Positions 2,179 through 21,659 of a stretch of DNA of 64,000 nt are shown here, piece after piece. Under the pieces are notes generated by a model. That model was not told the origin of the DNA. It saw only the letters and a list, made by a program, of their open reading frames with translations, and did not search any database. Origin of the DNA: Alphaproteobacteria bacterium 46_93_T64 (GTDB lineage: Bacteria > Pseudomonadota > Alphaproteobacteria > Sneathiellales > Sneathiellaceae); NCBI GenBank assembly GCA_002163135.1, contig MAAN01000017.1, forward strand, positions 62,001-126,000. Direction: 5' to 3'. Every line of letters starts with the position of its first letter. Position 1 is the stretch's first letter. Position numbers and translations under genes: made by a program.

Positions 2179-2591
2179 CTTTTGTCAAAAAGACTTTCCA
2201 TGTTTTTGAAGGTTTTGAATTCCATGGCATTGCCCGATGGATCATGGAGAAAGAATATCCCTTGTTCACCCGCCTCCCCTTCGAAGCGGATCCGAGGTTC
2301 GATCAAGAAAGGAATTCCTGAAGTTTTGATTTTTTCTTGCAAGACCTCCCAGTCACTCCAATCCAGAACCGCACCAAAATGCCGAACGGGAACATTGTCT
2401 CCATCCACGTCATTGGTTGTCGCGGTTTCACATTGATCGGGTTTGACGTGCGCAGAAATCTGATGACCGAAAAAATTGAAATCAATCCATTTTTCAGCTT
2501 CACGACCAACAATGCATCCTAGAACATCGGCATAGAATGCGCGGGTATCTTCAATATTCAACACAGGGAAAGCAAGATGAAATGGGGGCAT
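2175..2591 (-). CDS. VOC (glyoxalase/bleomycin-resistance/dioxygenase) family protein
   Basis: A 138-residue protein with the vicinal-oxygen-chelate fold pattern. It has an N-terminal FHLAFPVLNIEDTRAFYADVLG strand-helix unit, a central RHFGAVLDW strand, and a C-terminal FLHDPSGNAMEFKTF strand. The likely metal ligands are His5, the central His and the Glu in NAMEFK. Family members act as small metalloenzymes (glyoxalases, dioxygenases) or binding proteins; the substrate cannot be told from sequence. An AAGGA site lies 8-9 nt before the ATG. Its stop codon overlaps the cobC stop, so the two genes converge. It sits between cobC and the riboswitch-led operon, but nothing in it points to a cobalamin role. 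Confidence 0.85.
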   Translation of the reverse strand: MPPFHLAFPVLNIEDTRAFYADVLGCIVGREAEKWIDFNFFGHQISAHVKPDQCETATTNDVDGDNVPVRHFGAVLDWSDWEVLQEKIKTSGIPFLIEPRIRFEGEAGEQGIFFLHDPSGNAMEFKTFKNMESLFDKS

Positions 2592-2642
2592 GGTTTTTGT
2601 CCTTGGTTTAGCATAAGGGCGCTAAAAATAGAACGATGCGAA

Positions 2643-2672
2643 GCTTCTGTCACTTAAAGAATTGACAGAAGC
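2643..2672. repeat. Perfect 10-bp inverted repeat upstream of the cobalamin riboswitch
   Basis: GCTTCTGTCA (2643-2652) and TGACAGAAGC (2663-2672) are exact inverted copies separated by 10 nt. The element lies 51 bp before the VOC start (on the other strand) and just before the riboswitch. No gene ends here, so it is not an ordinary terminator. It could be an operator for either divergent promoter or a stem at the 5' end of the riboswitch transcript. Confidence 0.6.
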
Positions 2673-2689
2673 GCAGAAGATAATTAGCG

Positions 2690-2864
2690 TCCGGGTCGAT
2701 GGTTCCGGGGGTCACCTTCCGGATTAAAAGGGAACGCGGTGAGATTTAAACGATCAATTCCGTGGCTGTCCCCGCAACTGTAAGCGATTAGCTGTATCAC
2801 AACGCCACTGTGCAAACGGGAAGGCAGGTGCAAGTGTCATTCGCAAGCCAGGAGACCTGCCGTC
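2690..2864 (+). promoter_or_regulatory. Cobalamin (B12) riboswitch
   Basis: The conserved order of cobalamin riboswitch elements is present: AAAAGGGAACGCGGTGAGA (from about 2726), GTGGCTGTCCCCGCAACTGT (about 2762), the GCCACTG core, GGGAAGGCAGG, and the B12-box GCCAGGAGACCTGCC (about 2847-2861). In Gram-negative bacteria this RNA usually represses downstream translation or transcription when adenosylcobalamin binds. It precedes cobW-cobN-cobO-cobQ. The first strong ribosome site downstream is GGAGG at 2889-2893, which serves a short leader ORF rather than cobW itself. No terminator with a T-tract is visible between riboswitch and cobW, favouring translational control. Boundaries are approximate. 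Confidence 0.95.
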
Positions 2865-2895
2865 AAAAAACAGTTTCAAGACATGACGGAGGATC

Positions 2896-3024
2896 ATGAT
2901 GGTAAGGACCGTGAAAAACAAATTTGCTCACCAAAGAGTATCTGATCATACGTTTTTTCTGCAAGCTTTCGCTTGCGGTCAGCCTTCCGCCACACCCAAT
3001 TCATACAAGGCAATTTCACAATGA
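2896..3024 (+). CDS. Putative 42-codon leader ORF between riboswitch and cobW
   Basis: A short open frame begins with two ATG codons (2896 and 2899) after a near-consensus GGAGG (2889-2893). It ends with TGA at 3022-3024, which overlaps the cobW ATG (3021-3023) as ATGA. cobW itself has only a weak AAGG about 11 nt before its start, so ribosomes finishing this frame may restart on cobW. The predicted peptide (MMVRTVKNKFAHQRVSD...) has no recognised domain, no membrane segment and no Cys or His cluster. A 6-bp hairpin (GCAAGC, loop TTTC, GCTTGC, 2961-2976) lies inside the frame, and CATGA/TCATG (2882-2886, 2894-2898) could form a stem with the ribosome site in its loop. Translation is inferred, not shown. 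Confidence 0.45.
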   Translation: MMVRTVKNKFAHQRVSDHTFFLQAFACGQPSATPNSYKAISQ

Positions 3025-4055
3025 AGACTAATCAAAAAATTCCGGCGACAGTTATTACCGGATTTCTAGGCGCGGGAAAAACGAGCCTTATTCGCAATTT
3101 GATCGAAAACTCAGGCGGCAAACGCCTTGCCCTTATCATAAATGAATTTGGCGATTTGGGGGTCGACGGCGATGTTCTAAAAGGCTGTGGCAATGAAAAT
3201 TGCAGCGAAGAAGACATTGTGGAACTTGCAAATGGCTGCATTTGCTGCACCGTTGCAGATGATTTCCTACCAACAATTCAAATGCTTCTAGATCGCGAAG
3301 AGCGTCCGGATCATATCATTATTGAAACATCTGGGCTGGCTCTTCCAAAACCATTAATTCGGGCGTTTGGCTGGCCAGAAGTTCGTACGCAAGTGACTGT
3401 TGACGGAGTCGTAACAGTAATCGATGGCCCCGCATTTAGAGACGGACTGTTTGCATCCAACCCCGACGATGTCCAAGCCCAGCGCGAAGCGGATGAAAAT
3501 TTAGACCATGACAGTCCGCTTGAAGAACTTTTCGAAGATCAGCTTAATTGCGCTGACCTGATTGTTCTCAACAAATCAGATCTTCTAAATGAAGCTGATA
3601 CACAAAAAACAACCGCCGATATTCGTGCGCAAATTCGCCCTTCGGTAAAACTGGTCAAAACAAGCCACGGCAAACTAAATGCAGATGTTTTACTTGGCAT
3701 TGGCGCCGCTGCCGAAGATGACCTGGATATACGGAAATCACATCATGATGGCGCAGATGATCACGAACATGATGATTTCGATAGCTTTGTTATCGACCTT
3801 CCAAATCCCAAGTCTCCAGAAGAGCTGGTTGCAAAACTAGAAGTCGCCATAGAGACCCACGATATCTTGCGTGTTAAAGGTTTTATTGCTGTTGATGGAA
3901 AAGATATGCGTCTGGTTGTTCAGGGTGTTGGTAACCGTATTCAACACTATTACGACCGTGACTGGACTGCGGATGAAGATCAAATAAGCCGTCTAGTCAT
4001 CATCGGCGAGCACGGTCTTGACGAACAAGCGATCACTTCTACGATCAGAGGCTAA
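3021..4055 (+). CDS. cobW: CobW-type G3E-family GTPase
   Basis: A 344-residue COG0523/G3E GTPase that in cobalamin operons is thought to deliver metal to, or assist, the cobalt chelatase. It has Walker A TGFLGAGKTS (13-22), the metal-binding GCICC motif (Cys73, Cys75, Cys76), an ETSGLALP switch region, NKSD for guanine recognition, and a His/Asp-rich stretch HHDGADDHEHDD near residue 245 typical of metal chaperones. ATG 3021 is preferred over an upstream in-frame TTG (2973): it gives the normal family N-terminus and overlaps the leader ORF stop as ATGA. cobN starts 2 nt after its TAA, so the pair is one operon under the riboswitch. Confidence 0.93.
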   Translation: MKTNQKIPATVITGFLGAGKTSLIRNLIENSGGKRLALIINEFGDLGVDGDVLKGCGNENCSEEDIVELANGCICCTVADDFLPTIQMLLDREERPDHIIIETSGLALPKPLIRAFGWPEVRTQVTVDGVVTVIDGPAFRDGLFASNPDDVQAQREADENLDHDSPLEELFEDQLNCADLIVLNKSDLLNEADTQKTTADIRAQIRPSVKLVKTSHGKLNADVLLGIGAAAEDDLDIRKSHHDGADDHEHDDFDSFVIDLPNPKSPEELVAKLEVAIETHDILRVKGFIAVDGKDMRLVVQGVGNRIQHYYDRDWTADEDQISRLVIIGEHGLDEQAITSTIRG

Positions 4056-4057
4056 GA

Positions 4058-7000
4058 ATGCATTTACTGGCTGCAATACCGGGCGGAATAGCGGATGGAT
4101 CAGAAGCAGTAGATCTGGGTCAAACACCCGGTGACATTCTGTTTTTGTCCGCCGCTGACACAGAACTTTCCAGCCTAGCGGCAGCCTTCAAGGAACTACC
4201 CAAAGGCGCAGCCAGTTTACGCCTCGCAAATAACATGCAACTTGCCCATAACCTTAGTGTTGATATTTATGTTGAGGAAATTATCAGTGCCGCCAAACTG
4301 GTGGTTGTCAGATTACTTGGCGGAGTGAGTTACTGGACATATGGGGCTGAACAAATCACCGAATGTTGCCGTAGAAAAGGCATTAAGCTGGCGTTTTTAC
4401 CGGGTGACGATCAACCGGACGAGGAACTGACGGGCCTTAACACTGTTTCGCGTGAAGATAGTCACCGTCTTTGGCAATATTTGGTTCAGGGCGGCAGCGC
4501 GAATTATCTGGAATTCCTCAATTACTGCCAATACCTACTAGATGACAGCCAGCAATGGCAGGAACCACGCCCTCTGCTAAAAGCAGGACTTTATTGGCCT
4601 GGCATAGACAATCCAGACATCGAAAACCTGAAATCAGACTGGGTATCTGGTGCCCCCGTTGCCAGTATTGTTTTCTACCGTGCTTTATTTCAAGCAAACA
4701 ATCTGTCCCCCATTGATGATTTGATTGAAGCCCTTTCAAAACGCGGGATCAACCCGCTTCCCGTTTTTGTCTCCAGCCTGAAAGATCCTGTTTCATCAGA
4801 GATCATTGGGGATCTATTTAAAGACACCGAACCTTCGGTGATTTTAAATGCTACAGGATTTGCAGTATCCAGCCCCGGCGGAGATAGAAAAAAAACACCC
4901 TTTGACGATGCAGATTGTCCCGTATTGCAGGTAATTTTTTCAGGCGGAAACGAGGCCAGTTGGCGAGATGGAGTTAGTGGGCTTTCAGCCCGCGATATTG
5001 CTATGAATGTGGCATTGCCAGAAGTTGATGGCCGAATTTTAAGCCGCGCGGTTTCTTTTAAGGCCGATGCCGGTTTTGATAAGAACACGCAGACAAATAT
5101 CATCGCCTATAAAAGTGTTCCGGACCGCATCGATTTTGTGGCCGACCTTGCAGCGAAGTGGTCAGTGCTCCGACAAACTGAACCCGCTTCACGAAAAATC
5201 GCCCTTATCCTTGCGAACTACCCCAACAAAAATGGTCGTATCGGCAATGGCGTTGGACTGGATACACCTGCGGGGACAATTGAAGTCCTCTGCGCAATGA
5301 AGAACGCAAATTACAACATCGAAGATATTCCAAAAGACGGTAATGCCCTGATCGATGCCCTTCTTTCGGGGCCTACCAATGACCGAATATCTGAAGGTGC
5401 CCACAGGATAAGTGATTTTCGTCTTTCGTTAGCGGATTATCAGGAGTTTTTTGATCAACTGCCTGACAAACTCCAACAAGAAATATCAAGCCGCTGGGGG
5501 TCCCCCTCCAAAGACCCATTTGTAATCGACGACGAATTTCATCTTTCAATACAAAAGTATGGCAATGTGTTTGTCGGAATCCAGCCAGCGCGTGGCTATA
5601 ATATCGATCCGACGGCAAGTTACCATGATCCAGATTTGGTTCCCCCTCACGGCTATCTGGCGTTTTACACTTGGCTTAGAAATTCCGAAAAAGTCCACGC
5701 GATTGTTCACATGGGCAAGCATGGCAACATGGAGTGGCTGCCGGGGAAAAGTCTTGCCCTGTCGGAAGAATGTTACCCTGAGGCTGTCTTTGGCCCAATG
5801 CCACATATTTACCCTTTTATCGTCAACGATCCGGGCGAAGGGACGCAAGCAAAACGTCGCTCCTCTGCCGTTATCATTGATCACCTGACGCCTCCAATGA
5901 CGCGAGCGGAAAGCTACGGCCCCCTTGCCGATCTTGAGCGTCTAGTGGATGAGTATTATGAAGCGTCAGGTGTCGATCCAAGGCGGATTGCGCTCTTAAG
6001 CAAACAAATCGTCGAAATGACGCAAATATCCGGTGTCGATGTGGACTGCGGCATTGATCAAAACGACGCAGAAAATGAGCAGCTTTCCAAGTTGGACAAT
6101 TATTTATGCGAGCTTAAAGAATTACAAATTCGAGACGGCCTGCATATTTTCGGAAAATCACCAGAAGGAAGTTTGCTCGACGATCTGATTGTAGCTTTGG
6201 TCCGTATTCCTCGCGGAGATGGCACTAAAGGTGACGCCTCTCTTATCCGTGCCCTATCAAAAGATCTAGAGCTGGACGAAACCTTCGATCCTCTTGATTG
6301 CGAAATGGGCGCCGCATGGCAAGGACTGCAGCCAGCAGATCTCGAAATCCCGGGAACATGGCGCAGTAACGGCGATACGGTAGAGCGTCTGGAAGAACTC
6401 GCCCTCAAGTTAGTATCTGGTGCGGCAACCCCAAATCAGGATTGGACACAAAGCCTTGCTGTTCTCAAGCGCATTAATGAGCAACTCCGACCAACAGTAG
6501 AGCAGTGCGGCGCAAGTGAACTGCAGGGATTTCTCAGTGGATTGGACGGACATTTTGTAGCGCCCGGCCCTTCTGGCGCCCCGACACGCGGGCGCAATGA
6601 CGTCTTGCCTACTGGACGTAATTTCTATTCCGTCGATAGCAGATCTATACCCACCCCAACGGCATGGTTGCTTGGTTGGAAATCAGCTGAACGACTTATT
6701 CAACACTATCGTCAAGAAAACGGCAGTTGGCCAAAATCCATGATCCTAAGCGCATGGGGAACGTCTAACATGCGAACTGGTGGAGATGACATCGCGCAAG
6801 CGCTCGCCCTAATGGGAGTTCGCCCAAAATGGGATAATGCGTCGAACCGGGTTACAGGTTTTGAAATACTGCCCAAAGACCTTCTGGACCGTCCTCGTGT
6901 TGATGTAACACTTCGAATTTCAGGATTTTTCCGAGATGCATTCCCCCAGCAAATGGCTCTTTTTGATAGTGCAGCCCGCGCTATTTCAGAGCTTAATGAA

Positions 7001-7804
7001 GATGCAAAAACAAACCCTGCCGCAGCAAAGGTTCGTGAAGATACGATAGCTCTTCAGGCGAGTGGTCTATCCGAAGCTGAAGCTAAAAACAAAGCTAGTT
7101 TTCGCCTATTTGGATCGAAACCCGGTGCATATGGCGCAGGCTTGCAAGCCCTCATTGACGAGAAGGGCTGGTCGGACGAAGCTGATTTAGCCCGCGCCTA
7201 TGTTGCATGGGGCGGATATGCGTATGGCGCGAAAGAAGAAGGGCAAGCGGCCCACGGCCTTTTTGAATCTCGCCTCAAATCCATTGATGCCGTTATCCAT
7301 AATCAGGATAACCGCGAGCATGATCTTCTGGATAGTGATGATTACTATCAATTTGAAGGCGGAGTAACAGCTGCGGTTCGCCATTTAAAAGGTAGTCAGC
7401 CGCGCGTGTATCACAATGATCATTCTCGCCCGGAAAGCCCGAAAATCAGAACCTTGGAAGATGAAATTGGCCGAGTAGTTCGGGCACGTGCGGCCAATCC
7501 AAAATGGATTTCTGGTGTTATGCGCCATGGATATAAAGGCGCTTTTGAGATGTCGGCAACTGTTGACTATCTATTCGCCTTTGCCGCCACTGCAAAGGCT
7601 GTAAAAGACCACCATTTTGATATACTTTTTGACGCCTATATTACGGATCCTGATGTTCTAGCGTTTTTGCGGGAAAATAATCCGGATGCCTTAAAAGAGA
7701 TGCTGGAAAAATTTGATGAAGCGCTAATGCGCGGCTTGTGGCAACCTAGAAAAAACAGCTTGCGGAGCGACATCGCCGCCTTAATTGAGGAGGGAAATAA
7801 ATGA
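4058..7804 (+). CDS. cobN: Cobaltochelatase large subunit CobN
   Basis: A 1248-residue protein of the CobN/magnesium-chelatase H family, close to the usual length of about 1270. In the aerobic pathway CobN with the AAA+ partners CobS and CobT inserts cobalt into hydrogenobyrinic acid a,c-diamide using ATP. The segment HMGKHGNMEWLPGKS near residue 552 is the family signature and contains conserved His residues. Other recognisable stretches are LANYPNKNGRIGNGVGLDTP (N-terminal half) and GYKGAFEMSATVDYLFAF near the C-terminus. The stop overlaps cobO as ATGA. cobS and cobT are not in the window. The same locus carries the early-insertion chelatase CbiX, so two cobalt-insertion routes appear side by side. 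Confidence 0.95.
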   Translation: MHLLAAIPGGIADGSEAVDLGQTPGDILFLSAADTELSSLAAAFKELPKGAASLRLANNMQLAHNLSVDIYVEEIISAAKLVVVRLLGGVSYWTYGAEQITECCRRKGIKLAFLPGDDQPDEELTGLNTVSREDSHRLWQYLVQGGSANYLEFLNYCQYLLDDSQQWQEPRPLLKAGLYWPGIDNPDIENLKSDWVSGAPVASIVFYRALFQANNLSPIDDLIEALSKRGINPLPVFVSSLKDPVSSEIIGDLFKDTEPSVILNATGFAVSSPGGDRKKTPFDDADCPVLQVIFSGGNEASWRDGVSGLSARDIAMNVALPEVDGRILSRAVSFKADAGFDKNTQTNIIAYKSVPDRIDFVADLAAKWSVLRQTEPASRKIALILANYPNKNGRIGNGVGLDTPAGTIEVLCAMKNANYNIEDIPKDGNALIDALLSGPTNDRISEGAHRISDFRLSLADYQEFFDQLPDKLQQEISSRWGSPSKDPFVIDDEFHLSIQKYGNVFVGIQPARGYNIDPTASYHDPDLVPPHGYLAFYTWLRNSEKVHAIVHMGKHGNMEWLPGKSLALSEECYPEAVFGPMPHIYPFIVNDPGEGTQAKRRSSAVIIDHLTPPMTRAESYGPLADLERLVDEYYEASGVDPRRIALLSKQIVEMTQISGVDVDCGIDQNDAENEQLSKLDNYLCELKELQIRDGLHIFGKSPEGSLLDDLIVALVRIPRGDGTKGDASLIRALSKDLELDETFDPLDCEMGAAWQGLQPADLEIPGTWRSNGDTVERLEELALKLVSGAATPNQDWTQSLAVLKRINEQLRPTVEQCGASELQGFLSGLDGHFVAPGPSGAPTRGRNDVLPTGRNFYSVDSRSIPTPTAWLLGWKSAERLIQHYRQENGSWPKSMILSAWGTSNMRTGGDDIAQALALMGVRPKWDNASNRVTGFEILPKDLLDRPRVDVTLRISGFFRDAFPQQMALFDSAARAISELNEDAKTNPAAAKVREDTIALQASGLSEAEAKNKASFRLFGSKPGAYGAGLQALIDEKGWSDEADLARAYVAWGGYAYGAKEEGQAAHGLFESRLKSIDAVIHNQDNREHDLLDSDDYYQFEGGVTAAVRHLKGSQPRVYHNDHSRPESPKIRTLEDEIGRVVRARAANPKWISGVMRHGYKGAFEMSATVDYLFAFAATAKAVKDHHFDILFDAYITDPDVLAFLRENNPDALKEMLEKFDEALMRGLWQPRKNSLRSDIAALIEEGNK

Positions 7805-8436
7805 GCGAGACCACATTGACACCTGAAGAGTTGGCCCGCGCCAACGAAAAGGCCAAGAAAAAGAAAGCCGCCCGCGACAAAATGCTGGCGACAAAGACCA
7901 TCACAAAAGGCCTTCTTATGGTCCATACAGGTAAGGGAAAAGGCAAATCCACAGCCGCCTTTGGACTTGCCGCACGCGCAATTGGCAATGATATGAAGGT
8001 TGGCGTAGTCCAGTATGTAAAAGGAAAATGGGAGACCGGTGAGCGTAAAGTTCTGGAGGCATTCCCGGATCAAATTGAAATAAATACAATGGGTGAAGGT
8101 TTCACTTGGGAGACCCAAGACCGCGAACGCGATATTCGCGCAGCAGAGAAAGCTTGGGAGAAATCCAAGGAAATGATCGAGGCTTGTCGCGGTGAAAGCC
8201 CTGCCTATGACATGATCATTCTGGACGAGCTCAATATCGTTTTGCGTTATGACAGCATTGATCTGGCGGAAGTTATTGAATTTCTAAAGAATAAACCTGA
8301 AATGCTGCATGTTGTTGTAACAGGTCGCAATGCTAAAGAAGAAATGATTGAAATTGCTGATCTGGTAACCGAAATGACGCAGATAAAGCACCCATTCCGT
8401 TCAGGTGTTAAAGCACAGGTCGGGATTGAATATTAA
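7801..8436 (+). CDS. cobO: Cob(I)yrinic acid a,c-diamide adenosyltransferase (CobO/BtuR type)
   Basis: A 211-residue ATP:corrinoid adenosyltransferase that adds the 5'-deoxyadenosyl ligand to cobalt. The P-loop variant TGKGKGKSTAAFG lies at 43-55, followed by the family motifs GVVQYVKGKWETGE and MIILDELNIVLRYD, and VVVTGRNA near the end. The first 35 residues form a charged lysine-rich extension seen in many CobO proteins that may cap the active site. The gene starts inside the cobN stop (ATGA), and its TAA overlaps the cobQ start (TAATG), indicating translational coupling. Confidence 0.96.
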   Translation: MSETTLTPEELARANEKAKKKKAARDKMLATKTITKGLLMVHTGKGKGKSTAAFGLAARAIGNDMKVGVVQYVKGKWETGERKVLEAFPDQIEINTMGEGFTWETQDRERDIRAAEKAWEKSKEMIEACRGESPAYDMIILDELNIVLRYDSIDLAEVIEFLKNKPEMLHVVVTGRNAKEEMIEIADLVTEMTQIKHPFRSGVKAQVGIEY

Positions 8437-9893
8437 TGACTGCCGCCCTGATGATACAAGGCACCGGGTCTGATGTTGGCAAGTCTTTACTTGTCGCAGG
8501 CATCGCCCGTGCCTTGAATAATCGGGGATTGAAGGTTAAGCCGTTCAAACCGCAAAACATGTCAAACAACGCCGCTATCACGATTGAAGGTGGCGAGATC
8601 GGTAGAGCACAAGCCCTACAAGCCCGTGCCGCGCGAACGCCGCTTCAAAATGATATGAACCCGGTTCTACTAAAGCCGCAAACCGAAATTGGCGCGCAAG
8701 TTGTTGTTCAGGGTAAAGTTTGGGGCAATGCCAACGCTCATGACTACCAATCGATCAAACCGACACTTCTCCCGCAAGTTCTGGAGAGCTTTGAGAGATT
8801 AAAAAAGGACACCGATCTCGTCATTGTCGAAGGAGCTGGCAGTCCGGCAGAGATAAATCTTCGCAAAAATGATATCGCCAATATGGGCTTTGCAGAAGCT
8901 GCAGACATTCCAGTATTGCTGGCAGGCGATATTGATCGAGGCGGTGTTATTGCCCAGATTGTTGGCACCTATGCGCTTTTAAGCGAGACGGAAAAGGCAC
9001 GAACAAGAGGCTTCCTCATCAACAAATTTAGAGGTGATCCCACCCTGTTTGATGACGGGCTCACAATTCTGGAGGAACGCACGGGGTGGCAGAATTTTGG
9101 CGTTATCCCTTTCTTTAAGGATGCCTACAAACTTCCGCCGGAAGACGCATTTTCAATTCAAAGCCAGTTAAAAGAAAAGGTATCTGTCAACATTGCGATC
9201 CCGGTTCTATCGCGCATCGCGAATTATGACGATTTTGACCCACTAATTGCCGAGCCAGACGTCAATATTCATATGGTAAAAGCCGGAGAGCCCCTTCCAA
9301 CAGGCATGGATTTAGTCATCCTCCCGGGCTCCAAGGCAACACTGGCTGATATGCAGTATTTACGAGCCCAAGGGTGGGATACAGATATCCTCTCCCACAT
9401 TCGCCATGGCGGAAGTGTTATCGGCATCTGCGGTGGATATCAAATGCTCGGCACAGAACTGCTTGATCCTGAAGGACGAGAAGGAAACCTAACTAAAATT
9501 GATGGGCTGGGCCTTTTAGATTTCAAGACCACAATGACGGGAAATAAGAAACTTCTTGAGGAAAGCGGCACAGAACATCTGACGAAATCAAGGGTTCGCG
9601 GTTATCACATGCATTTAGGTGATACTTTTGGTCCCGCATTAGAGAGACCCATGCTTCACCTGCAATCAGGACCAGACGGGGTGATATCGAAAGATGGCGC
9701 CATTATGGGAAGCTATCTTCACGGCTTGTTTGCCAATGATGAATTCAGAACAAATCTGATAAACCGTTTTAGGCGCAATGATCAAAAATTGGAGCGTTTC
9801 GAAATACGGATCGAACAAACTCTGGATCATCTAGCGGATCATCTTGAAAAACATATAGCGATCGACCGATTGTTGGAGATCGCAGGATGTTAG
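8436..9893 (+). CDS. cobQ: Cobyric acid synthase (glutamine-hydrolysing)
   Basis: A 485-residue cytoplasmic amidotransferase that amidates the b, d, e and g carboxyls of adenosylcobyrinic acid a,c-diamide. The N-terminal ATP-binding domain resembles dethiobiotin synthetase (GTGSDVGKSLLVAGIARAL, residues 9-27; FKPQNMSNNAA). The C-terminal class I glutamine amidotransferase domain carries the nucleophile Cys in IGICGGYQMLG and the catalytic His in GSYLHGLF. The gene is the last of the riboswitch-led cobWNOQ unit. Its TAG overlaps by 4 bp the stop of cobD on the opposite strand, so the two genes converge. Confidence 0.96.
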   Translation: MTAALMIQGTGSDVGKSLLVAGIARALNNRGLKVKPFKPQNMSNNAAITIEGGEIGRAQALQARAARTPLQNDMNPVLLKPQTEIGAQVVVQGKVWGNANAHDYQSIKPTLLPQVLESFERLKKDTDLVIVEGAGSPAEINLRKNDIANMGFAEAADIPVLLAGDIDRGGVIAQIVGTYALLSETEKARTRGFLINKFRGDPTLFDDGLTILEERTGWQNFGVIPFFKDAYKLPPEDAFSIQSQLKEKVSVNIAIPVLSRIANYDDFDPLIAEPDVNIHMVKAGEPLPTGMDLVILPGSKATLADMQYLRAQGWDTDILSHIRHGGSVIGICGGYQMLGTELLDPEGREGNLTKIDGLGLLDFKTTMTGNKKLLEESGTEHLTKSRVRGYHMHLGDTFGPALERPMLHLQSGPDGVISKDGAIMGSYLHGLFANDEFRTNLINRFRRNDQKLERFEIRIEQTLDHLADHLEKHIAIDRLLEIAGC

Positions 9894-10873
9894 ATAATCT
9901 GAACGCCCGCAATGAGGCCCAGTATCAAAAGAAGAAAAACACCGCTTTTCACATACAAATTAAGGGCTTTCTTGATGTCATCCGCAGTAACATCCGGACG
10001 GCCACTAGAATTCATCCAATCGTCTTCAGTCAACTTGCCGCCATATTGCCGCGGTCCGGCCAACGCAATATCAAGCGCACCAGCGGTAGCCGCTTCTTGC
10101 CAGCCCGCATTTACGCTTTTGTGTTTGCTTGCATCCCGCATCATCGCGCCGAATGCATTACGATTGAGAGAAGCCAAACAAATCAACGCTCCGGTAAGGC
10201 GCGCGGGAATGTAGTTCACCACATCATCGAGGCGAGCGGCAAATTTTCCGAAATATTCAAATTTTTCATTCCGGTGACCGATCATGCTGTCGAGGGTATT
10301 TACAGCCTTATAAAACAGCAAACCCGGCAGCCCCAACAAAGCAAACCAGAACAAAGGTGCCACGGTGCCGTCGGAGAAATTCTCAGCGAGACTTTCGATC
10401 GCCGCACGGGCGACACCGGCCTCGTCAAGGCTGGTGGGATCACGGCCGACAATGTGACTAACTGTTGTTCGTCCGTCATCCAACGAGGTTTCAAGTCCCT
10501 GCTGCACGGCCTGAACACCCTGATACAAACCACGATAGGCAATCAGGCTGCTACAAATCAGGATATAGACAATCGCGCCGCCCGGAATTTGATCCAGCAA
10601 CGTAGTTACTGCAAATCCGGTAGCAACAGACAAAAAAATAACAACTATGGTCGCTTTTACACCAAGCAAAAAGCGAAATACGTTGCTATAAGCAGGATTG
10701 TTCAATCGATTAGCAAGCCAGCCGGTCAGATTCCCAATTGGAATGACAGGATGCGGTATAAACCGGTACACCCATTTTGGATCACCGATTATCATATCTG
10801 CGAGCAAAACAGCAAATGCGATAAAAGTCGGATCAAAAGCATGGTCGGTAATTTGCTTAATCAGGCTAGACAT
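9890..10873 (-). CDS. cobD: Adenosylcobinamide-phosphate synthase CobD/CbiB
   Basis: A 327-residue integral membrane protein that joins cobyric acid with aminopropanol (phosphate), the product of the CobC branch. The N-terminus ADMIIGDPKWVYRFIPHPVIPIGN is the family signature (usually DxxLGDP...HPV). Several hydrophobic segments follow, and SLAENFSDGTVAPLFW is a conserved loop. The frame is open for a further 73 codons upstream, but that stretch has no similarity to the family and overlaps cbiX on the other strand, so ATG 10873 is used. The gene is inverted relative to its neighbours, converging with cobQ (4-bp stop overlap) and diverging from cbiX across 111 bp. Confidence 0.93.
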   Translation of the reverse strand: MSSLIKQITDHAFDPTFIAFAVLLADMIIGDPKWVYRFIPHPVIPIGNLTGWLANRLNNPAYSNVFRFLLGVKATIVVIFLSVATGFAVTTLLDQIPGGAIVYILICSSLIAYRGLYQGVQAVQQGLETSLDDGRTTVSHIVGRDPTSLDEAGVARAAIESLAENFSDGTVAPLFWFALLGLPGLLFYKAVNTLDSMIGHRNEKFEYFGKFAARLDDVVNYIPARLTGALICLASLNRNAFGAMMRDASKHKSVNAGWQEAATAGALDIALAGPRQYGGKLTEDDWMNSSGRPDVTADDIKKALNLYVKSGVFLLLILGLIAGVQII

Positions 10874-10984
10874 GGCGCCAAGATGATACGCAACGACAAA
10901 ACCGTCAACAGCAATTTTCAGCTCATGGCGGATACAGATAATTAAGGGATGTGCCGGATAGCTGGCATGACTATGGAGTTCGAT

Positions 10985-12004
10985 ATGACAGAAAAAATTG
11001 GCGTAATGGTATGCGGTCACGGTAGCCGTGATGAAGGCGCAGTGACAGAATTTGCAGCCGTCGCAAAAGGAATTGCGGAACGTCTTCCACAATATGCAGT
11101 CGGCTCTGGTTTTCTAGAATTTGCGACCCCTATTATCCGTACCGGTTTGGATAATCTTGTGGAAAGCGGCCATAATCATATTCTCGCAGTTCCGGGAATG
11201 CTGTTCGCTGCGGGCCATGCAAAAAACGATATTCCTTCGGTTCTAAATGCCTACGCTGCCAGTCAAGACAATCTCAAAATCTCCTATGGGCGAGAACTGG
11301 GCATTGATTTAAAAATGATCCGCGCAGCTGGCGAGCGTATCAAAGAAGCCCTTGCAGCTGCTGATGATACTGTTCCCATGCACGAAACCATGTTGGTTGT
11401 TGTGGGACGTGGTGCCTCGGACCCAGACGCAAACTCCAACGTTTCCAAAGTTATGCGTATGCTCTGGGAAGGTCTTGGATTTGGTTGGGGTGAAACTGTA
11501 TATTCCGGCGTCACATTCCCGTTGGTAGAACCGGGCTTGGAACACGCTGTAAAACTTGGATACAAGCGCATCGTTGTTTTTCCATACTTCTTGTTTACCG
11601 GCATTCTTGTAAACCGTATTTATGATTACACAGATAAAGTTGCTGACAAAAATCCAGATATTGAGTTCATCAAGGCCCCATACTTGAACGATCATCCGTT
11701 GGTATTGGATTGCTTTGCAGAACGCGTCCAAGAAATTCTCGATGGCACAAACAACATGAACTGTGGCTTGTGCAAGTACCGCGAACAGGCTCTGGGCTTT
11801 GAAGATGAAGTCGGATTAGTGCAGGAAAGCCATCACCATCATGTAGAAGGCATTGGTACGGGTGATGCACAATCGCCCGACAACAGCCACGACCACAAAC
11901 ATGGGCACGACCACAGCGACGATCATGATCATGGACACCACCACCATCCCTACCCTCATGCTGACCATCCTTTAGGGCCGGTCACAATGAAAGATGATAA
12001 CTAG
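10985..12004 (+). CDS. cbiX: Sirohydrochlorin cobaltochelatase CbiX, long form with MXCXXC and His-rich tail
   Basis: A 339-residue chelatase that inserts Co(II) into sirohydrochlorin early in the anaerobic pathway. It shows the duplicated half-domains of long CbiX: GVMVCGHGSRDEG near the start and GHAKNDIPSVL later supply the metal-site histidines. The C-terminal extension has MNCGLC (258-263), matching the MXCXXC motif that binds an Fe-S cluster in Bacillus megaterium CbiX. A tail of about 17 histidines interspersed with Asp follows, probably for cobalt storage or delivery. Start 10985 is chosen because GGAG lies 6 nt upstream; three earlier in-frame ATGs lack this. It heads the cbiX-cobH-cobL-cobI-cbiG/J-cobM run. 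Confidence 0.94.
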   Translation: MTEKIGVMVCGHGSRDEGAVTEFAAVAKGIAERLPQYAVGSGFLEFATPIIRTGLDNLVESGHNHILAVPGMLFAAGHAKNDIPSVLNAYAASQDNLKISYGRELGIDLKMIRAAGERIKEALAAADDTVPMHETMLVVVGRGASDPDANSNVSKVMRMLWEGLGFGWGETVYSGVTFPLVEPGLEHAVKLGYKRIVVFPYFLFTGILVNRIYDYTDKVADKNPDIEFIKAPYLNDHPLVLDCFAERVQEILDGTNNMNCGLCKYREQALGFEDEVGLVQESHHHHVEGIGTGDAQSPDNSHDHKHGHDHSDDHDHGHHHHPYPHADHPLGPVTMKDDN

Positions 12005-12013
12005 GGTCTGCTG

Positions 12014-12643
12014 ATGTATGATTATCTGAAAGAGCCTGCGGCAATTTACGAAAAATCTTTCGCGACAGTTCAAAGCGAAGTGGATTTTTCAGGAATAACG
12101 CCGCCCCTTCAGCGCATGATTACGCGCATCATCCATGCGTGTGGTATGCCTGAGATTTTTGGCGATTTAGCGTATAGCCAGAATGTCGCAGATATTTCTG
12201 TTGCCGCCTTAAAAAACGGCGCACCTATCCTCAGCGATTGTGAAATGGTTCGACATGGTATCATCCAGAAATTTTTGCCGTCGGGCAATCAAGTTATTTG
12301 CACGTTGAATGATCCGCAAACTCCGGAGCTTTCTGCAACATTAAAAACAACGAGATCTGCTGCAGCGATTGAACTTTGGAAACCACATTTGGATGGTGCA
12401 ATCGCAGTGTTTGGCAACGCCCCAACCGCCCTTTTTCACTTACTCGAAATGATTGACGCAGGAGCTCCGAAGCCTGCTGCTATTTTGGGTTTTCCTGTTG
12501 GCTTTGTCGGCGCGGCTGAATCCAAATATGCATTGAAGGAGTTCGGTCACGATATTCCTTTCATCACACTTTGCGGCCGTAAAGGCGGAAGCGCTATGGC
12601 GGCAGCGGCTGTAAACGGTGCATCAGTGGGAGCGAGCAAATAA
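12014..12643 (+). CDS. cobH: Precorrin-8X methylmutase
   Basis: A 209-residue CobH/CbiC enzyme that moves the C-11 methyl group to C-12, giving hydrogenobyrinic acid or its cobalt form. The catalytic-His region MITRIIHACGMPE (about 35-47) and the C-terminal GFPVGFVGAAESK and TLCGRKGGSAMAAAAVN stretches are conserved in the family. The protein is cytoplasmic. An AGGG site precedes the ATG, which lies 9 nt after cbiX. cobL begins 1 nt after its stop. Confidence 0.96.
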   Translation: MYDYLKEPAAIYEKSFATVQSEVDFSGITPPLQRMITRIIHACGMPEIFGDLAYSQNVADISVAALKNGAPILSDCEMVRHGIIQKFLPSGNQVICTLNDPQTPELSATLKTTRSAAAIELWKPHLDGAIAVFGNAPTALFHLLEMIDAGAPKPAAILGFPVGFVGAAESKYALKEFGHDIPFITLCGRKGGSAMAAAAVNGASVGASK

Positions 12644-12644
12644 T

Positions 12645-13853
12645 ATGACTGCTTGGCTTTACATAATTGGTGTCGGCGACGATGGGCTCGCGTCTTTAAA
12701 TGAAGCTGCGAAAACAGCGCTTGCAGATGCGACCCTTATAATCGGCGGAGAGAGACATCTCGATATGTTGCCCGCAGATGACGCTCGTCCGAAAATGAGT
12801 TGGCCAAGCCCGTTGGTCAAACTTGTAAATGATGTGATGGATCGCAGGGGCGAAAAAATCGCAATATTGGCAACCGGTGATCCTATGCATTACGGCATTG
12901 GTGTCACATTTGCCAAACGACTACCACCTGAGGAAATGACCGTTTTTCCATCGTTGTCTGCCTTTAGCTTGGCGGCATCACGGCTTGGGTGGGATTTATC
13001 CAAGATCGTTACAATGACGTTGCATGGCAGACCATTGGAATTGATAATTCCACCCCTGAATCACTCCGCCCGAATTTTGGCACTTTCGGACAACGGTGAA
13101 ACACCTTCGAAACTGGCAACACTACTCGCCGATAAGGGATACGGAGAAAGTGTTCTTACTGTCTTGGAACATATGGGCGGGGCTGGCGAGAAAATCACCA
13201 CCAAAACAGCGTCTCAGTGGATCGGGCAAAAGTGTCAGGACTTAAACACTGTAGCGATAGAATGCGCTATGGAAGGGAACCCATCTCCCCTTACAACCAT
13301 ACCCGGTTTGCCTGATGATGCCTTCATTCATGATGGTCAACTCACGAAAAAAGAAGTGCGCGCCACGACACTTGCCGCCCTTAATCCTCTTGCAGGCCAA
13401 ATGCTCTGGGATGTGGGGGCTGGCTCTGGCTCCATCAGCATTGAATGGATGCGCATTAGTCCACTAAATCAGGCGATTGCAATTGAACATAAATCAGATC
13501 GCCTTGAGCTTATCAGCAAGAACAGTCTTCACCTTGGCGTCCCCGGATTGAAAATAATTTCAGGTAAAGCGCCAGATGCCTTGGATACACTGGCTGATCC
13601 CGATCGAATTTTTATCGGGGGAGGCCTTACAAACGATGGTGTTTTTGAGGCCTGCTGGCGACGGTTGAAAACCGGCGGCATTCTTGTGGCGAATACTGTC
13701 ACCACACAAGGTGAGGGTTTCGCCTTTACCTTGGCAGAAAAACATGACGGGGAGCTAACGCGCCTCAACTATTCACGTGCTGTAAAAATCGGCGACTTCA
13801 CTAGTTGGAAGCCCTTTAAACAAGTAACACAGTTAAGATTGGTAAAAAAATGA
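12645..13853 (+). CDS. cobL: Precorrin-6Y C5,15-methyltransferase (decarboxylating), CbiE-CbiT fusion
   Basis: A 402-residue bifunctional enzyme. The N-terminal half (about 1-200) is a CbiE-type tetrapyrrole methyltransferase (IIGVGDDGL; ATGDPMHYGIG). The C-terminal half (about 225-402) is a CbiT-type Rossmann methyltransferase (LWDVGAGSGSISIEWMR) that also decarboxylates the C-12 acetate. Together they methylate C-5 and C-15. The fusion is the usual proteobacterial CobL form. Start 12645 is preferred over an upstream in-frame ATG at 12618 inside cobH, since MTAWLYIIGVG is the family N-terminus. Its TGA overlaps the cobI ATG as ATGA. Confidence 0.95.
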   Translation: MTAWLYIIGVGDDGLASLNEAAKTALADATLIIGGERHLDMLPADDARPKMSWPSPLVKLVNDVMDRRGEKIAILATGDPMHYGIGVTFAKRLPPEEMTVFPSLSAFSLAASRLGWDLSKIVTMTLHGRPLELIIPPLNHSARILALSDNGETPSKLATLLADKGYGESVLTVLEHMGGAGEKITTKTASQWIGQKCQDLNTVAIECAMEGNPSPLTTIPGLPDDAFIHDGQLTKKEVRATTLAALNPLAGQMLWDVGAGSGSISIEWMRISPLNQAIAIEHKSDRLELISKNSLHLGVPGLKIISGKAPDALDTLADPDRIFIGGGLTNDGVFEACWRRLKTGGILVANTVTTQGEGFAFTLAEKHDGELTRLNYSRAVKIGDFTSWKPFKQVTQLRLVKK

Positions 13854-14554
13854 CAGGTACTCTGTATGGGCTTGGGATTGGACCGGGAGATCCCGATCTG
13901 ATCACACTGAAAGCCCTTAAAATTCTTCAAAGAAGCCCTGTTGTTGCGTATCCCACACTGGAAGATGGCGATAGCCTTGCACGGGCAATAGTCGCGCCAC
14001 ATTTAAGCGGAGACCAACAAGAAATCTCCATCCGCATTCCAATGGCCGTAGAGCGAAAACCAGCGCAAGATGCCTATGATATTGCGGCGGAAGAGTTAAG
14101 TGCATGTCTCGCATCAGGCAAAGATATTGCGGTCCTTTGCGAAGGAGATCCGTTCTTTTATGGATCATTTATGTATTTATTCGGCCGTATGGCAGAGAAA
14201 TTTCCGGTGGAGGTTGTTCCCGGCGTCTCCTCACTTACAGCCTGCGCAACTGCGTTGCAAACGCCGCTTTCTGCGCGCAATGACGTTCTGACAGTGTTAC
14301 CTGCACCGCTCGACAGTGAAACATTACGCGCCCGCATTGAGGCTGCAGACAGCATTGCTATTATGAAGGTGGGACGACATTTTGAACGCGTAAGGCTCCT
14401 CATCAAGCAAATGGGATTAATAGACAAAGCGCACTATATCGAGCGCGCAAGTATGGAAAATCAAAAAATTATGCCGTTAGAAGAAGTTCCTGCCGATGCA
14501 GCACCGTACTTTTCCATGATCTTGATCCACAAACGGGGGCAAGCATGGAAATAA
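13850..14554 (+). CDS. cobI: Precorrin-2 / cobalt-factor II C20-methyltransferase
   Basis: A 234-residue SAM-dependent tetrapyrrole methyltransferase that methylates C-20. Family motifs seen are GLGIGPGDPDLITLKA at the N-terminus, LCEGDPFFYGSFMYL near 105, and VVPGVSSLTACATALQTPL near 125. Whether it acts on metal-free precorrin-2 or on the cobalt form (CbiL activity) cannot be told from sequence; the neighbouring CbiX and CbiD favour the cobalt form. It overlaps cobL by 4 bp and the next gene by 10 bp. Confidence 0.94.
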   Translation: MTGTLYGLGIGPGDPDLITLKALKILQRSPVVAYPTLEDGDSLARAIVAPHLSGDQQEISIRIPMAVERKPAQDAYDIAAEELSACLASGKDIAVLCEGDPFFYGSFMYLFGRMAEKFPVEVVPGVSSLTACATALQTPLSARNDVLTVLPAPLDSETLRARIEAADSIAIMKVGRHFERVRLLIKQMGLIDKAHYIERASMENQKIMPLEEVPADAAPYFSMILIHKRGQAWK

Positions 14555-16374
14555 CGCCACCAACAGCAATTATCCTGCTGAATAACAGCGGCCGTGCGAC
14601 AGCGGATGCCTTGGCTAAGATATACCCAGAGGCCCTCATCCATGGCCTTGCAGGTCGTGTGGATAATGCGGACATTACTTTTCAGCAAACTGCCGTTCAT
14701 TTGCAGGAACTCTACAAAAGTAGAACACCAATCTTAGGAATTTGTGCGAGTGCTATTCTAGTTCGTTGCCTTGCACCAGCGCTCAACGATAAATTGGTTG
14801 AGCCTCCTGTCCTTGCCATATCAGACACAGGCTCGATGATTGTGCCCTTGCTTGGTGGCCATCACGGTGCCAATGATATGGCACGTAATATTGCAGCCAA
14901 AATTGATGGGCAAGCTGCGATAACAACTGCAAGCGATGTGCATTACAACATTGCCCTCGATAATCCGCCGACGGGTCTCGTTCTTGCAAACCCAGAAGAC
15001 ATGAAGCTTTTTGCCGGCAAATTGCTGAACGGCGAAACGATAAAAATGGTCGGGGAGCATACTTGGCTGGGCACCTCCGATTTGCCGTTCTCCAGTGACG
15101 GAATTCTTACCATACATGTGACGACCTCACCCGTTCAGGGCAATGAAACTACTCTCGTCTATCACCCCAAGACAATGTGTATTGGGGTCGGCTGCGAACG
15201 TCATGCTGAGGCTGATGAGTTGCTGCACCTTGTTAAAGCCGCTCTCAACGAAAATAACATCAGCCCGCTTGCCGTAGCGGTCGTTAGCACCATTGATCTA
15301 AAATCTGACGAACACGCTGTTCATGCAACGGCAAAACACTTTGGCATGTCTCCCAAATTCTTTAGTGCAAACAAATTGGAAGTAGAAGCAGATCGTCTCG
15401 AAAATCCATCAGATGTTGTCTTTGCTGAAGTTGGTTGTCACGGCGTAAGTGAAGGCGCGGCCCTTGCTGCAGCGGGACAACATTCAAAACTGATTGTACC
15501 AAAAAACAAATCAAAACGGGCGACGGTTGCCATCGCAGAAAGCGTGGCTCCCGTATCCCATAAAATGGTCGGTAAAATTCAGGGCAAATTATCTGTCATT
15601 GGCATCGGCCCCGGTCAAGATGCCTGGCGAACACCTGAAGCGAGCCATCTTATCTCAGAAGCGACTGATCTTGTGGCCTATGGCCTGTATATTGATCTAC
15701 TTGGTAAAACGGCACACGGTAAAACACGGCACGACTTTGGCCTAGGCGAAGAGGAAAAACGCGTTCGTTTTGCTTTGGATCTTGCCGCTGAAGGAAAAAA
15801 CGTTGCGCTGATTTCATCAGGCGACATTGGTATTTATGCCATGGCAACGCTCGTGTTTGAGTTGATAAAACGTGAAGAGCGTGGGGAATGGGATCGCCTC
15901 GACATTCAAGTGACGCCGGGTATTTCCGCCTTGCAGGCAGCAGCTGCACGCGCTGGCGCTCCTCTTGGTCATGATTTCTGCACCATTTCCTTGTCTGATC
16001 TTTTAACGCCATGGGATGCAATTGAAAAACGTCTCAAGGCCGCCGCGATGGGTGATTTTGTCGTTGCCTTCTATAATCCGGTTTCAATGAAGCGACGCAC
16101 ACAGCTACATGCCGCAAAAGCTATTCTTCTGGATCATCGTCCAGATACGACACCTGTTATTGTTGCTCGAAATCTGGGCCGTGATGATGAAAGTGTTCAG
16201 ATAATGCCGCTGATTGAACTGGATCCTGAAAAAGTGGACATGCTGACGCTGGTGATGGTTGGATCTAGCGACAGTCAAATTACAACAACAAACTCAGGCT
16301 TAAAAAACTGGGCCTATACTCCGCGTGGATATGCCGGAAAAATGGCGCCCGCGACAAAGGACTTAGACATATGA
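14545..16374 (+). CDS. cbiG-cobJ: CbiG-CobJ (CbiH) fusion: cobalt-precorrin-5A hydrolase plus precorrin-3B C17-methyltransferase
   Basis: A 609-residue fusion. Residues about 1-340 are CbiG-like: ILGICASAILVRCLAP, LLGGHHGANDMARNIA and, in the C-terminal subdomain, CIGVGCERHAEADEL and EVGCHGVSEGAALAA. CbiG opens the delta-lactone and releases the C-20 fragment. Residues about 348-600 are a CobJ/CbiH methyltransferase (LSVIGIGPGQDAWRTPEA; ISSGDIGIYAMA; VTPGISALQAAAARAGAP; VVAFYNPVS), which methylates C-17 and contracts the ring. Fusing them links consecutive steps around ring contraction. The start overlaps the end of cobI by 10 bp with GGGGGC just upstream, and the stop overlaps cobM as ATGA. 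The fusion supports an oxygen-independent ring-contraction chemistry. Confidence 0.93.
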   Translation: MEITPPTAIILLNNSGRATADALAKIYPEALIHGLAGRVDNADITFQQTAVHLQELYKSRTPILGICASAILVRCLAPALNDKLVEPPVLAISDTGSMIVPLLGGHHGANDMARNIAAKIDGQAAITTASDVHYNIALDNPPTGLVLANPEDMKLFAGKLLNGETIKMVGEHTWLGTSDLPFSSDGILTIHVTTSPVQGNETTLVYHPKTMCIGVGCERHAEADELLHLVKAALNENNISPLAVAVVSTIDLKSDEHAVHATAKHFGMSPKFFSANKLEVEADRLENPSDVVFAEVGCHGVSEGAALAAAGQHSKLIVPKNKSKRATVAIAESVAPVSHKMVGKIQGKLSVIGIGPGQDAWRTPEASHLISEATDLVAYGLYIDLLGKTAHGKTRHDFGLGEEEKRVRFALDLAAEGKNVALISSGDIGIYAMATLVFELIKREERGEWDRLDIQVTPGISALQAAAARAGAPLGHDFCTISLSDLLTPWDAIEKRLKAAAMGDFVVAFYNPVSMKRRTQLHAAKAILLDHRPDTTPVIVARNLGRDDESVQIMPLIELDPEKVDMLTLVMVGSSDSQITTTNSGLKNWAYTPRGYAGKMAPATKDLDI

Positions 16375-17147
16375 CCGTACATTTCATTGGCGCTGGCCCT
16401 GGAGCCGCTGATCTGATCACCCTGCGTGGCCGTGACCTTATCGCCACCTCCCCAGTTTGTCTTTATGCAGGATCGCTCGTCCCTGAAGAAATTGTCGCTC
16501 ATGCCGCAGACGATGCGCATGTGGTTGATACTGCGCCGTTGCATCTGGACGAAATTATGAAGGAAATGATCGACGCCGAGGCAAAAGGTTTGAATGTTGC
16601 CCGCGTCCATTCTGGAGATCCAAGTCTCTATGGCGCCATCGGAGAGCAAATGCGCCGCTTGGACGAGCTCGGAATTGATTACACGATTACACCTGGCGTT
16701 CCAGCGTTTGCTGCCGCAGCGGCAGCGTTGAAAACAGAATTCACGCTGCCAGATGTCAGCCAGACCATTATTCTGACCCGTACGTCCATGAAGGCGACGG
16801 CGATGCCAAATAATGAGGATTTGAAAACGCTGGGCAAATCAGGTGCAACACTTGCTATTCACCTGAGCGTTAGAAATATGCGCAAAGTAACGTCTGAGCT
16901 TATTCCGTTTTACGGTGAAGATTGCCCTGTTGCTGTTGTCTACCGTGCAAGTTGGCCGGACGAGATAATCATCAAAGGAACCCTTGCTGACATTCAGCAA
17001 AAAGTTCGCGCCGAAAAAATCACGCGCACAGCTTTGATTATTGTAGGTCATGTGCTGGAAGCAAAAGGTTATCGCGACAGCGCCCTGTACCACGCTGAAC
17101 ATGTTCATGTGCTCCGTCCTAAACGGAAAGCTGCAGCTGACGAATAA
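16371..17147 (+). CDS. cobM: Precorrin-4 / cobalt-precorrin-4 C11-methyltransferase
   Basis: A 258-residue SAM-dependent methyltransferase that methylates C-11. Motifs typical of CobM/CbiF are FIGAGPGAADLITLRG at the N-terminus, CLYAGSLVPEEIV, RVHSGDPSLYGAIGEQ near 82, and TPGVPAFAAAAAALKTEFTLP near 110. It is the last gene of this plus-strand run. Its final 29 bp overlap the 3' end of cobK on the opposite strand, a longer convergent overlap than elsewhere in the locus. Confidence 0.96.
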   Translation: MTVHFIGAGPGAADLITLRGRDLIATSPVCLYAGSLVPEEIVAHAADDAHVVDTAPLHLDEIMKEMIDAEAKGLNVARVHSGDPSLYGAIGEQMRRLDELGIDYTITPGVPAFAAAAAALKTEFTLPDVSQTIILTRTSMKATAMPNNEDLKTLGKSGATLAIHLSVRNMRKVTSELIPFYGEDCPVAVVYRASWPDEIIIKGTLADIQQKVRAEKITRTALIIVGHVLEAKGYRDSALYHAEHVHVLRPKRKAAADE

Positions 17148-21133: not shown

Positions 21134-21137
21134 AGTG

Positions 21138-21659
21138 ATGAATAATAATTTGCCAAATATTAGTCTCGTCCTTGGGGGAGCACGATCCGGGAAAAGCCAG
21201 TTTGCCGAAAACCTTGCCCTTAAAACTGAGTTAGATCCTTATTATTTCGCCACTAGTCAGGCATATGACACTGAAATGAAGGACCGGATTTCCAAACATC
21301 AGATTGACCGCGGTGATTTATGGGCCACTCTGGAAGAGCCTCTTGAACTGTCTACGTTATTACTAAGTGAAGCACGTCCCGAACGGATAATACTGGTGGA
21401 TTGCCTCACCCTGTGGGTGACTAATTTGATGATGGCAGAAAAAGACATTGTGGATGAATTTCGAGATTTTATTGATACCCTACACAAATTAAACGGCCCC
21501 GTAATATTTGTATCGAACGAGGTAGGTCAAGGAATTGTGCCTGATAACGCGATGGCTCGAGCTTTCCGTGATTACGCCGGAAGACTTCACCAAGATATTG
21601 CGGCAATTGCAGATGACGTATATTTTATCACGGCTGGCCTTCAACAGAGACTGAAGTGA
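21138..21659 (+). CDS. cobP: Bifunctional adenosylcobinamide kinase / guanylyltransferase
   Basis: A 173-residue CobP/CobU enzyme that phosphorylates adenosylcobinamide and transfers GMP to give adenosylcobinamide-GDP. The P-loop LVLGGARSGKSQFAE (10-24), ILVDCLTLWVTNLM and VSNEVGQGIVPDNAMAR are family signatures. A GTG sits directly before the chosen ATG (21135) and could also serve as start. Very short spacings to cobB and cobS place it in one operon with them. Confidence 0.95.
   Translation: MNNNLPNISLVLGGARSGKSQFAENLALKTELDPYYFATSQAYDTEMKDRISKHQIDRGDLWATLEEPLELSTLLLSEARPERIILVDCLTLWVTNLMMAEKDIVDEFRDFIDTLHKLNGPVIFVSNEVGQGIVPDNAMARAFRDYAGRLHQDIAAIADDVYFITAGLQQRLK

Follow-up and report, generated by a model that had tools for sequence, protein, structure and literature searches.

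The cobW locus

Which start codon does a cobalamin (B12) riboswitch control when a short reading frame separates it from the first recognisable gene? The question is raised by the cobW locus in the 64,000-nucleotide stretch of Alphaproteobacteria bacterium 46_93_T64 that was analysed here as a whole (the window; contig MAAN01000017.1, positions 62,001 to 126,000). On the plus strand of the window, the riboswitch aptamer (RF00174) spans positions 2683-2878 (cmscan 111.9 bits, E 3.3e-27; gathering cut-off 31.5), and the first gene 3' of it is cobW (3021-4055, plus strand; TIGR02475, 542 bits), for which the closest CobW matches titled with a species or genus come from Sneathiella. An earlier note, made from the letters of this DNA, had pointed to a GGAGG preceding a 42-codon frame that ends exactly on the cobW start through ATGA, and to a weak ribosome site at cobW itself. 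Both observations were borne out. The leader Shine-Dalgarno sequence (SD) GGAGG is located at 2888-2892 and the leader frame at 2896-3024, its TGA stop (3022-3024) overlapping the cobW start within the ATGA at 3021-3024 (all plus strand), and the SD energy is -8.9 kcal/mol for the leader vs. -2.6 kcal/mol for cobW. GGAGG and ATG 2896 are separated by only 3 nt; the in-frame ATG 2899 follows at 6 nt and, given this spacing, may be the true start of the leader, which would then have 41 instead of 42 codons.

Behind cobW, genes of the same strand that overlap or lie at most 9 nt apart continue from 4058 to 17147, i.e. cobN, cob(I)yrinate adenosyltransferase, cobQ, a 352-aa frame (9887-10945, within the cob cluster) without an NCBIfam match at 1e-10, a sirohydrochlorin-chelatase-like frame (below its cut-off), precorrin-8X methylmutase, a CbiE/CbiT fusion, cobI, a CbiG/methylase fusion, and a corrin methylase. 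Together with cobW, these genes are probably read as one transcript. A sigma-70 scan gave no plus-strand promoter match in 2590-3100; a TTGACA at 2662-2667, just 5' of the aptamer, recurs in many rows of our alignment A1 and is possibly a -35 element. The window also encodes cobU (21135-21659), beyond two minus-strand frames, and the leader sits at the place of cobU in several relatives, where this gene comes first after the riboswitch and just before cobW. A decayed cobU as the source of the leader would fit this position, but no cobU residue was visible by eye in the leaders, and the idea was set aside as a guess.

Riboswitch platform and proposed relay

The leader SD is placed in the loop of a hairpin (CATGA-CGGAGGA-TCATG, 2882-2898, plus strand) with ATG 2896 in its 3' arm, a candidate P13/L13 that is invariant across 21 intervals of the genus Sneathiella (alignment A1) save for the outermost pair, which is kept in 20 of them. 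Its proposed kissing partner, the aptamer loop L5 (TCCCCG, 2769-2774, plus strand), is likewise invariant in all 21, and as neither L5 nor L13 varies across the genus, no covariation can be read there. In silico, L5 (UCCCCG) and the SD loop (CGGAGGA) form a duplex of -9.0 kcal/mol with one bulged base. Such a bulge is described as the key to B12-dependent kissing in the accessible text of a review (PMC10907184), and its presence in the predicted L5-L13 helix supports control of the leader SD by the riboswitch. The second riboswitch of the genome (G000:C22:18002-18204, L001, minus strand) directly precedes a CbiM gene (Pfam) with an SD of its own and without a leader frame, and offers a within-genome contrast to the cobW locus. 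Its loops (CCCCCG and CGGUGGG) are predicted to pair at -11.0 kcal/mol, and pairs swapped between the two riboswitches gave -7.0 and -8.8 kcal/mol, the latter hardly weaker. The elements of an env8-type platform are both predicted here, i.e. a P13 hairpin whose loop contains the ribosome site and, in silico at two loci, bulged L5-L13 complementarity. Moreover, the leader SD, with -8.9 or -9.5 kcal/mol in each of the 21 intervals, fits the type of control described for ppe2 of Mycobacterium tuberculosis by its position and its predicted L5 complementarity.

We consider it very probable that the leader is a relay cistron between the B12 switch and cobW. At low B12 the GGAGG loop would be free and ribosomes would initiate at one of the two start codons (ATG 2896 or ATG 2899), translate the leader, terminate at ATGA, and reinitiate on cobW with its weak SD. 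At high B12, aptamer L5 would pair with the SD loop and block the leader start, in which case cobW would stay untranslated, as would probably, through additional overlaps, the operon genes that follow it. We infer leader translation, its response to B12, and reinitiation from the anatomy of the locus and from the patterns of conservation described below. If true, the riboswitch acts on a throw-away frame and not directly on any known gene, and annotations or reporters in which the riboswitch is joined directly to cobW would give a false picture of its action.

The leader frame in Sneathiella

Our sample comprised 24 genomes of the genus (the window's own and G001-G023), 21 of them with a close cobW (73-100% identity), while the cobW of G012 is distant (54%), G016 gave a weak paralogue match only, and G014 had none. 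In G012, which carries the same genus label, the riboswitch is followed by a DUF1636 gene and then by this distant cobW (L112, about 743-1489). The 21 genomes yielded 21 distinct riboswitch-cobW intervals, window included, after 12 identical genome_contigs records had been merged; cobW starts were set by alignment or similarity to the CobW of the window, and an RF00174 riboswitch was detected with Rfam in 20 of the 20 Sneathiella relatives searched.

A frame that starts from the same SD and whose stop overlaps the cobW start is present in every one of the 21 intervals, with an overlap of 4 nt in 17, 8 nt in one, 11 nt in one, and 14 nt in two. All 17 intervals in which cobW starts with ATGA use that TGA as the leader stop, and where cobW starts with ATGC or ATGT (L085, L089, L090, and L092) the leader runs in the other frame and stops 8-14 nt inside cobW. 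Counted past the first nine bases, none of the 732 codons of the leader frame is a stop, vs. 43 of 732 and 38 of 728 in the other two frames. The leaders are 33-53 codons long and fall into 17 clusters with at most 62% identity between clusters and a median of 46% over all pairs; after drift on this scale, one would not expect common descent by itself to preserve the open frames. The window and L084, its nearest relative, for example, share a leader length of 42 codons and the same ATGA at a DNA identity of only 59% in the leader, compared to 78% over 900 nt of cobW. The earlier note had suggested that the riboswitch may gate the leader and that cobW may depend on reinitiation from it, and both suggestions gain strong support from this comparison, with a hairpin that is constant but for its outer pair and a frame and overlap kept throughout at such low identity. 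The pattern it had named as evidence against itself, a leader with a frameshift or stop between an intact riboswitch and cobW, occurs in none of the 21 intervals.

A frame that is always open might also serve transcription. According to this alternative, translation of the leader would chiefly shield the RNA from Rho, and once B12 is bound the untranslated, C-rich leader would allow a putative Rho stop before cobW; the overlap with cobW would then matter less and the switch would become a transcriptional one, although such protection and translational coupling could act together. In 20 of 21 intervals, C-G skew is stronger in the leader than over the first 900 nt of cobW (means of 0.158 vs. 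-0.038), and in the CruR system a Rho site is located in a C>G region inside the uORF (accessible text of PMC9426467). However, protection alone would allow stops slightly before cobW, yet all 21 overlap its start, and several species show little skew, with a negative value in L092. We regard Rho protection as an improbable main role of the leader, with the C-rich, G-poor composition relative to cobW allowing for an additional layer of control by Rho next to the relay.

The leader peptide

In the one group of leaders that can be aligned (five species), pN/pS was about 0.93 for the leader vs. 0.06 for cobW in the same pairs. No shared motif was seen by eye among the 21 leader peptides, and the peptide of the window, the only one scanned, had no match in Pfam. 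With tblastn, this 42-aa peptide gave two matches against plasmids, both at E 7, and against 25 genomes of the order itself plus two matches at E about 0.4-0.5; in view of the lack of peptide homologues, leaders were compared by frame rather than by protein. The conserved peptide expected of a sensing leader peptide (attenuator or arrest peptide) was not found. These results and the spread of lengths (33-53 aa) make it very unlikely that the peptide itself acts, e.g. by stalling or by sensing a metal, even though the strong SD suggests that it is probably made and one group of species has alignable leaders.

The leaders thus retain their frame and its end but not their peptide sequence, and the peptide is most likely a by-product. 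A frame and a stop that are retained, and a frame that follows the start of cobW, are the outcome expected of selection for ribosome hand-over to cobW. The earlier note had expected a conserved frame, start, and ATGA with a bias towards synonymous changes, and had left it undecided whether the peptide is irrelevant or functional. Frame and overlap were indeed kept in all intervals, in 18 of 21 with the first ATG as the start, but the synonymous bias is absent, and the nearly neutral amino-acid changes favour an irrelevant peptide.

Chance expectation and initiation at cobW

Could the frame be a chance opening in an untranslated spacer? For any one species, the probability of such a frame is roughly 1-22%, and matches outside the genus exceed the shuffled rate only about twofold. 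However, dinucleotide shuffles with a random frame lead to an expectation of ~2.5 of 21, compared to the observed 21 of 21, which fall into 17 clusters of little similarity; this count permits a start anywhere within a 13-nt stretch. If only the first ATG is allowed, 18 of 21 pass, while L086 needs the second ATG and L088 and L101 a GTG a few bases on; with one rule applied to real and shuffled sequences alike, all 21 pass, compared to 0.53 on average and never more than 2 in 30 rounds of shuffling. We rate a chance opening just as unlikely as an acting peptide.

For coupling, the strength of the ribosome site of cobW itself is of interest. In all 21 intervals, pairing with the anti-SD is stronger for the leader SD than for that of cobW, the latter ranging between -2.6 and -4.3 kcal/mol in 11 intervals and between -5.5 and -7.4 kcal/mol in the other 10, where an independent cobW start is possible because of such a moderate SD. 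Well-structured cobW starts (12.6 and 12.2 kcal/mol) occur in L090 and L092, where the cobW SD is strongest. As a general cause of coupling, leader RNA hiding the cobW start was not supported (mean z of -0.37, positive in 5 of 21). It is scarcely credible that frameshifting links the leader to CobW as its N-terminal part or that CobW truly starts upstream, given that, despite an in-frame TTG at 2973 in the window and a first platform ATG in frame with cobW in L086, leader and cobW are read in different frames in 21 of 21, no conserved residues were seen, and the TIGR02475 match begins at residue 5 of the 3021 start. In L086, this first platform ATG runs into cobW without a stop, and an N-terminally extended CobW is possible there besides the coupled frame.

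Occurrence outside the genus

In other alphaproteobacteria a real gene is often located between riboswitch and cobW, i.e. cobU, a DUF1636 gene, or cbtBA. Among the cases scanned with Pfam, the intervening genes matched CobU at L038, L053, and L068, DUF1636 at L030, L076, L080, and L112, and CbtB and CbtA at L056. Eleven direct riboswitch-cobW pairs were found outside the genus, three with a relay frame (L042, L059, and L214) and seven without. In two of the seven (L134 and L229), the platform SD seems to serve cobW directly, and no relay frame was present in L041, L047, L050, L069, and L224; L031 has a 10-codon frame with ATGA and no good SD adjacent. The three relay frames encode 18 aa (L214), 24 aa (L042, again as L217), and 17 aa (L059, again as L221), have a strong SD, end on cobW with ATGA, and all belong to one family. 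In this family, 13 of 15 genomes have cobW, and an Rfam riboswitch lies directly before it at the four loci tested (L214, L217, L221, and L224), three of them with a relay frame. The family's nine other loci with cobW mostly show a cobU-like end just upstream of the gene (by eye). Comparison of these loci points to a second, separate and new occurrence of the relay in one other family (three of four loci).

A wide survey of alphaproteobacterial B12 riboswitches drew its 60 stretches, along with 30 other loci, from part of the roughly 140 matches listed. Of 115 loci entered, 105 remained once the 10 in which the box could not be located had been dropped, and 13 of the 105 follow the rule, vs. 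6.9 +/- 2.3 in shuffles (30 rounds). The sole locus from within the genus was L204, another riboswitch of Sneathiella G005, whose companion L205 was among the 10 dropped. As this excess is weak, we do not claim a class-wide rule, and outside the genus the arrangement is sporadic.

It is conceivable, though we hold it to be rather doubtful, that there is a recurring class of "contentless" relay cistrons, where selection maintains or creates an arbitrary frame, reaching from the ribosome site of the riboswitch to the following start codon, once the usual first gene (cobU or a DUF1636 gene) has ceased to separate the riboswitch from cobW. The frame would be needed because this site alone is hidden by the switch and because, without the frame, the C-rich leader would permit Rho termination. 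If true, such frames could be found only by their conserved frame and not by protein similarity, and hence may be common and missed. A route to further cases would be to seek a kept frame with a stop-start overlap instead of a kept protein.

Comparison with known systems

The closest counterpart of the proposed relay is ppe2 of M. tuberculosis (Kipkorir et al. 2024, PMC11260477). As far as the accessible text of that paper goes, a B12 riboswitch masks the SD of the short uORF uPPE2, the uORF stop and the downstream start share AUGA, ppe2 is without an obvious SD, and L5-L13 kissing is proposed; reporters showed that ppe2 expression depends on uORF translation, mainly through termination-reinitiation. 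The earlier note had seen in the cobW leader an added control layer that is not usually annotated, and such a layer is supported here but already published for ppe2. Both systems share the B12 riboswitch, the short frame, and the AUGA/ATGA overlap (here 4 nt in 17 of 21 and 8-14 nt in 4 of 21). On the other hand, the ppe2 switch has been described as a class IIb variant and is located ahead of an actinobacterial PPE gene, while the present one is alphaproteobacterial and precedes cobW and B12 biosynthesis genes, its SD is inside the proposed L13 loop, and its frame is kept genus-wide while the peptide changes freely. Coupling has been shown for ppe2 and is what we infer for the cobW leader.

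In env8, as described in the review mentioned above (PMC10907184), a small P13 hairpin has the ribosome site in its loop and pairs with L5 with a one- or two-base bulge. These features are shared by the platform predicted here, but the SD belongs to the leader frame instead of the regulated gene. The accessible text on CruR (PMC9426467) describes a first small ORF on whose translation the next genes depend, as proposed for the cobW leader, and a C>G region, as seen there. There, however, copper is sensed by a conserved peptide motif and a long gap is, according to the authors, incompatible with coupling, while the peptide of the cobW leader is unconserved and the overlap tight. The accessible texts on the small proteome of Sinorhizobium meliloti (PMC10117765) and on a SAM-II riboswitch acting at a distance (PMC9373788) describe no such relay. 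Our literature search, with most subscription papers outside its scope, returned no paper with both Sneathiella and riboswitch.

In the literature found, the relay has so far rested on one experimental case, to which comparative, genus-wide evidence can now be added. The kind of arrangement is already known from ppe2, and by its anatomy the cobW leader would work like it, as a separate member in another phylum. What appears to be new, judged from the sequences compared, is the peptide-independent conservation of a relay across a genus.
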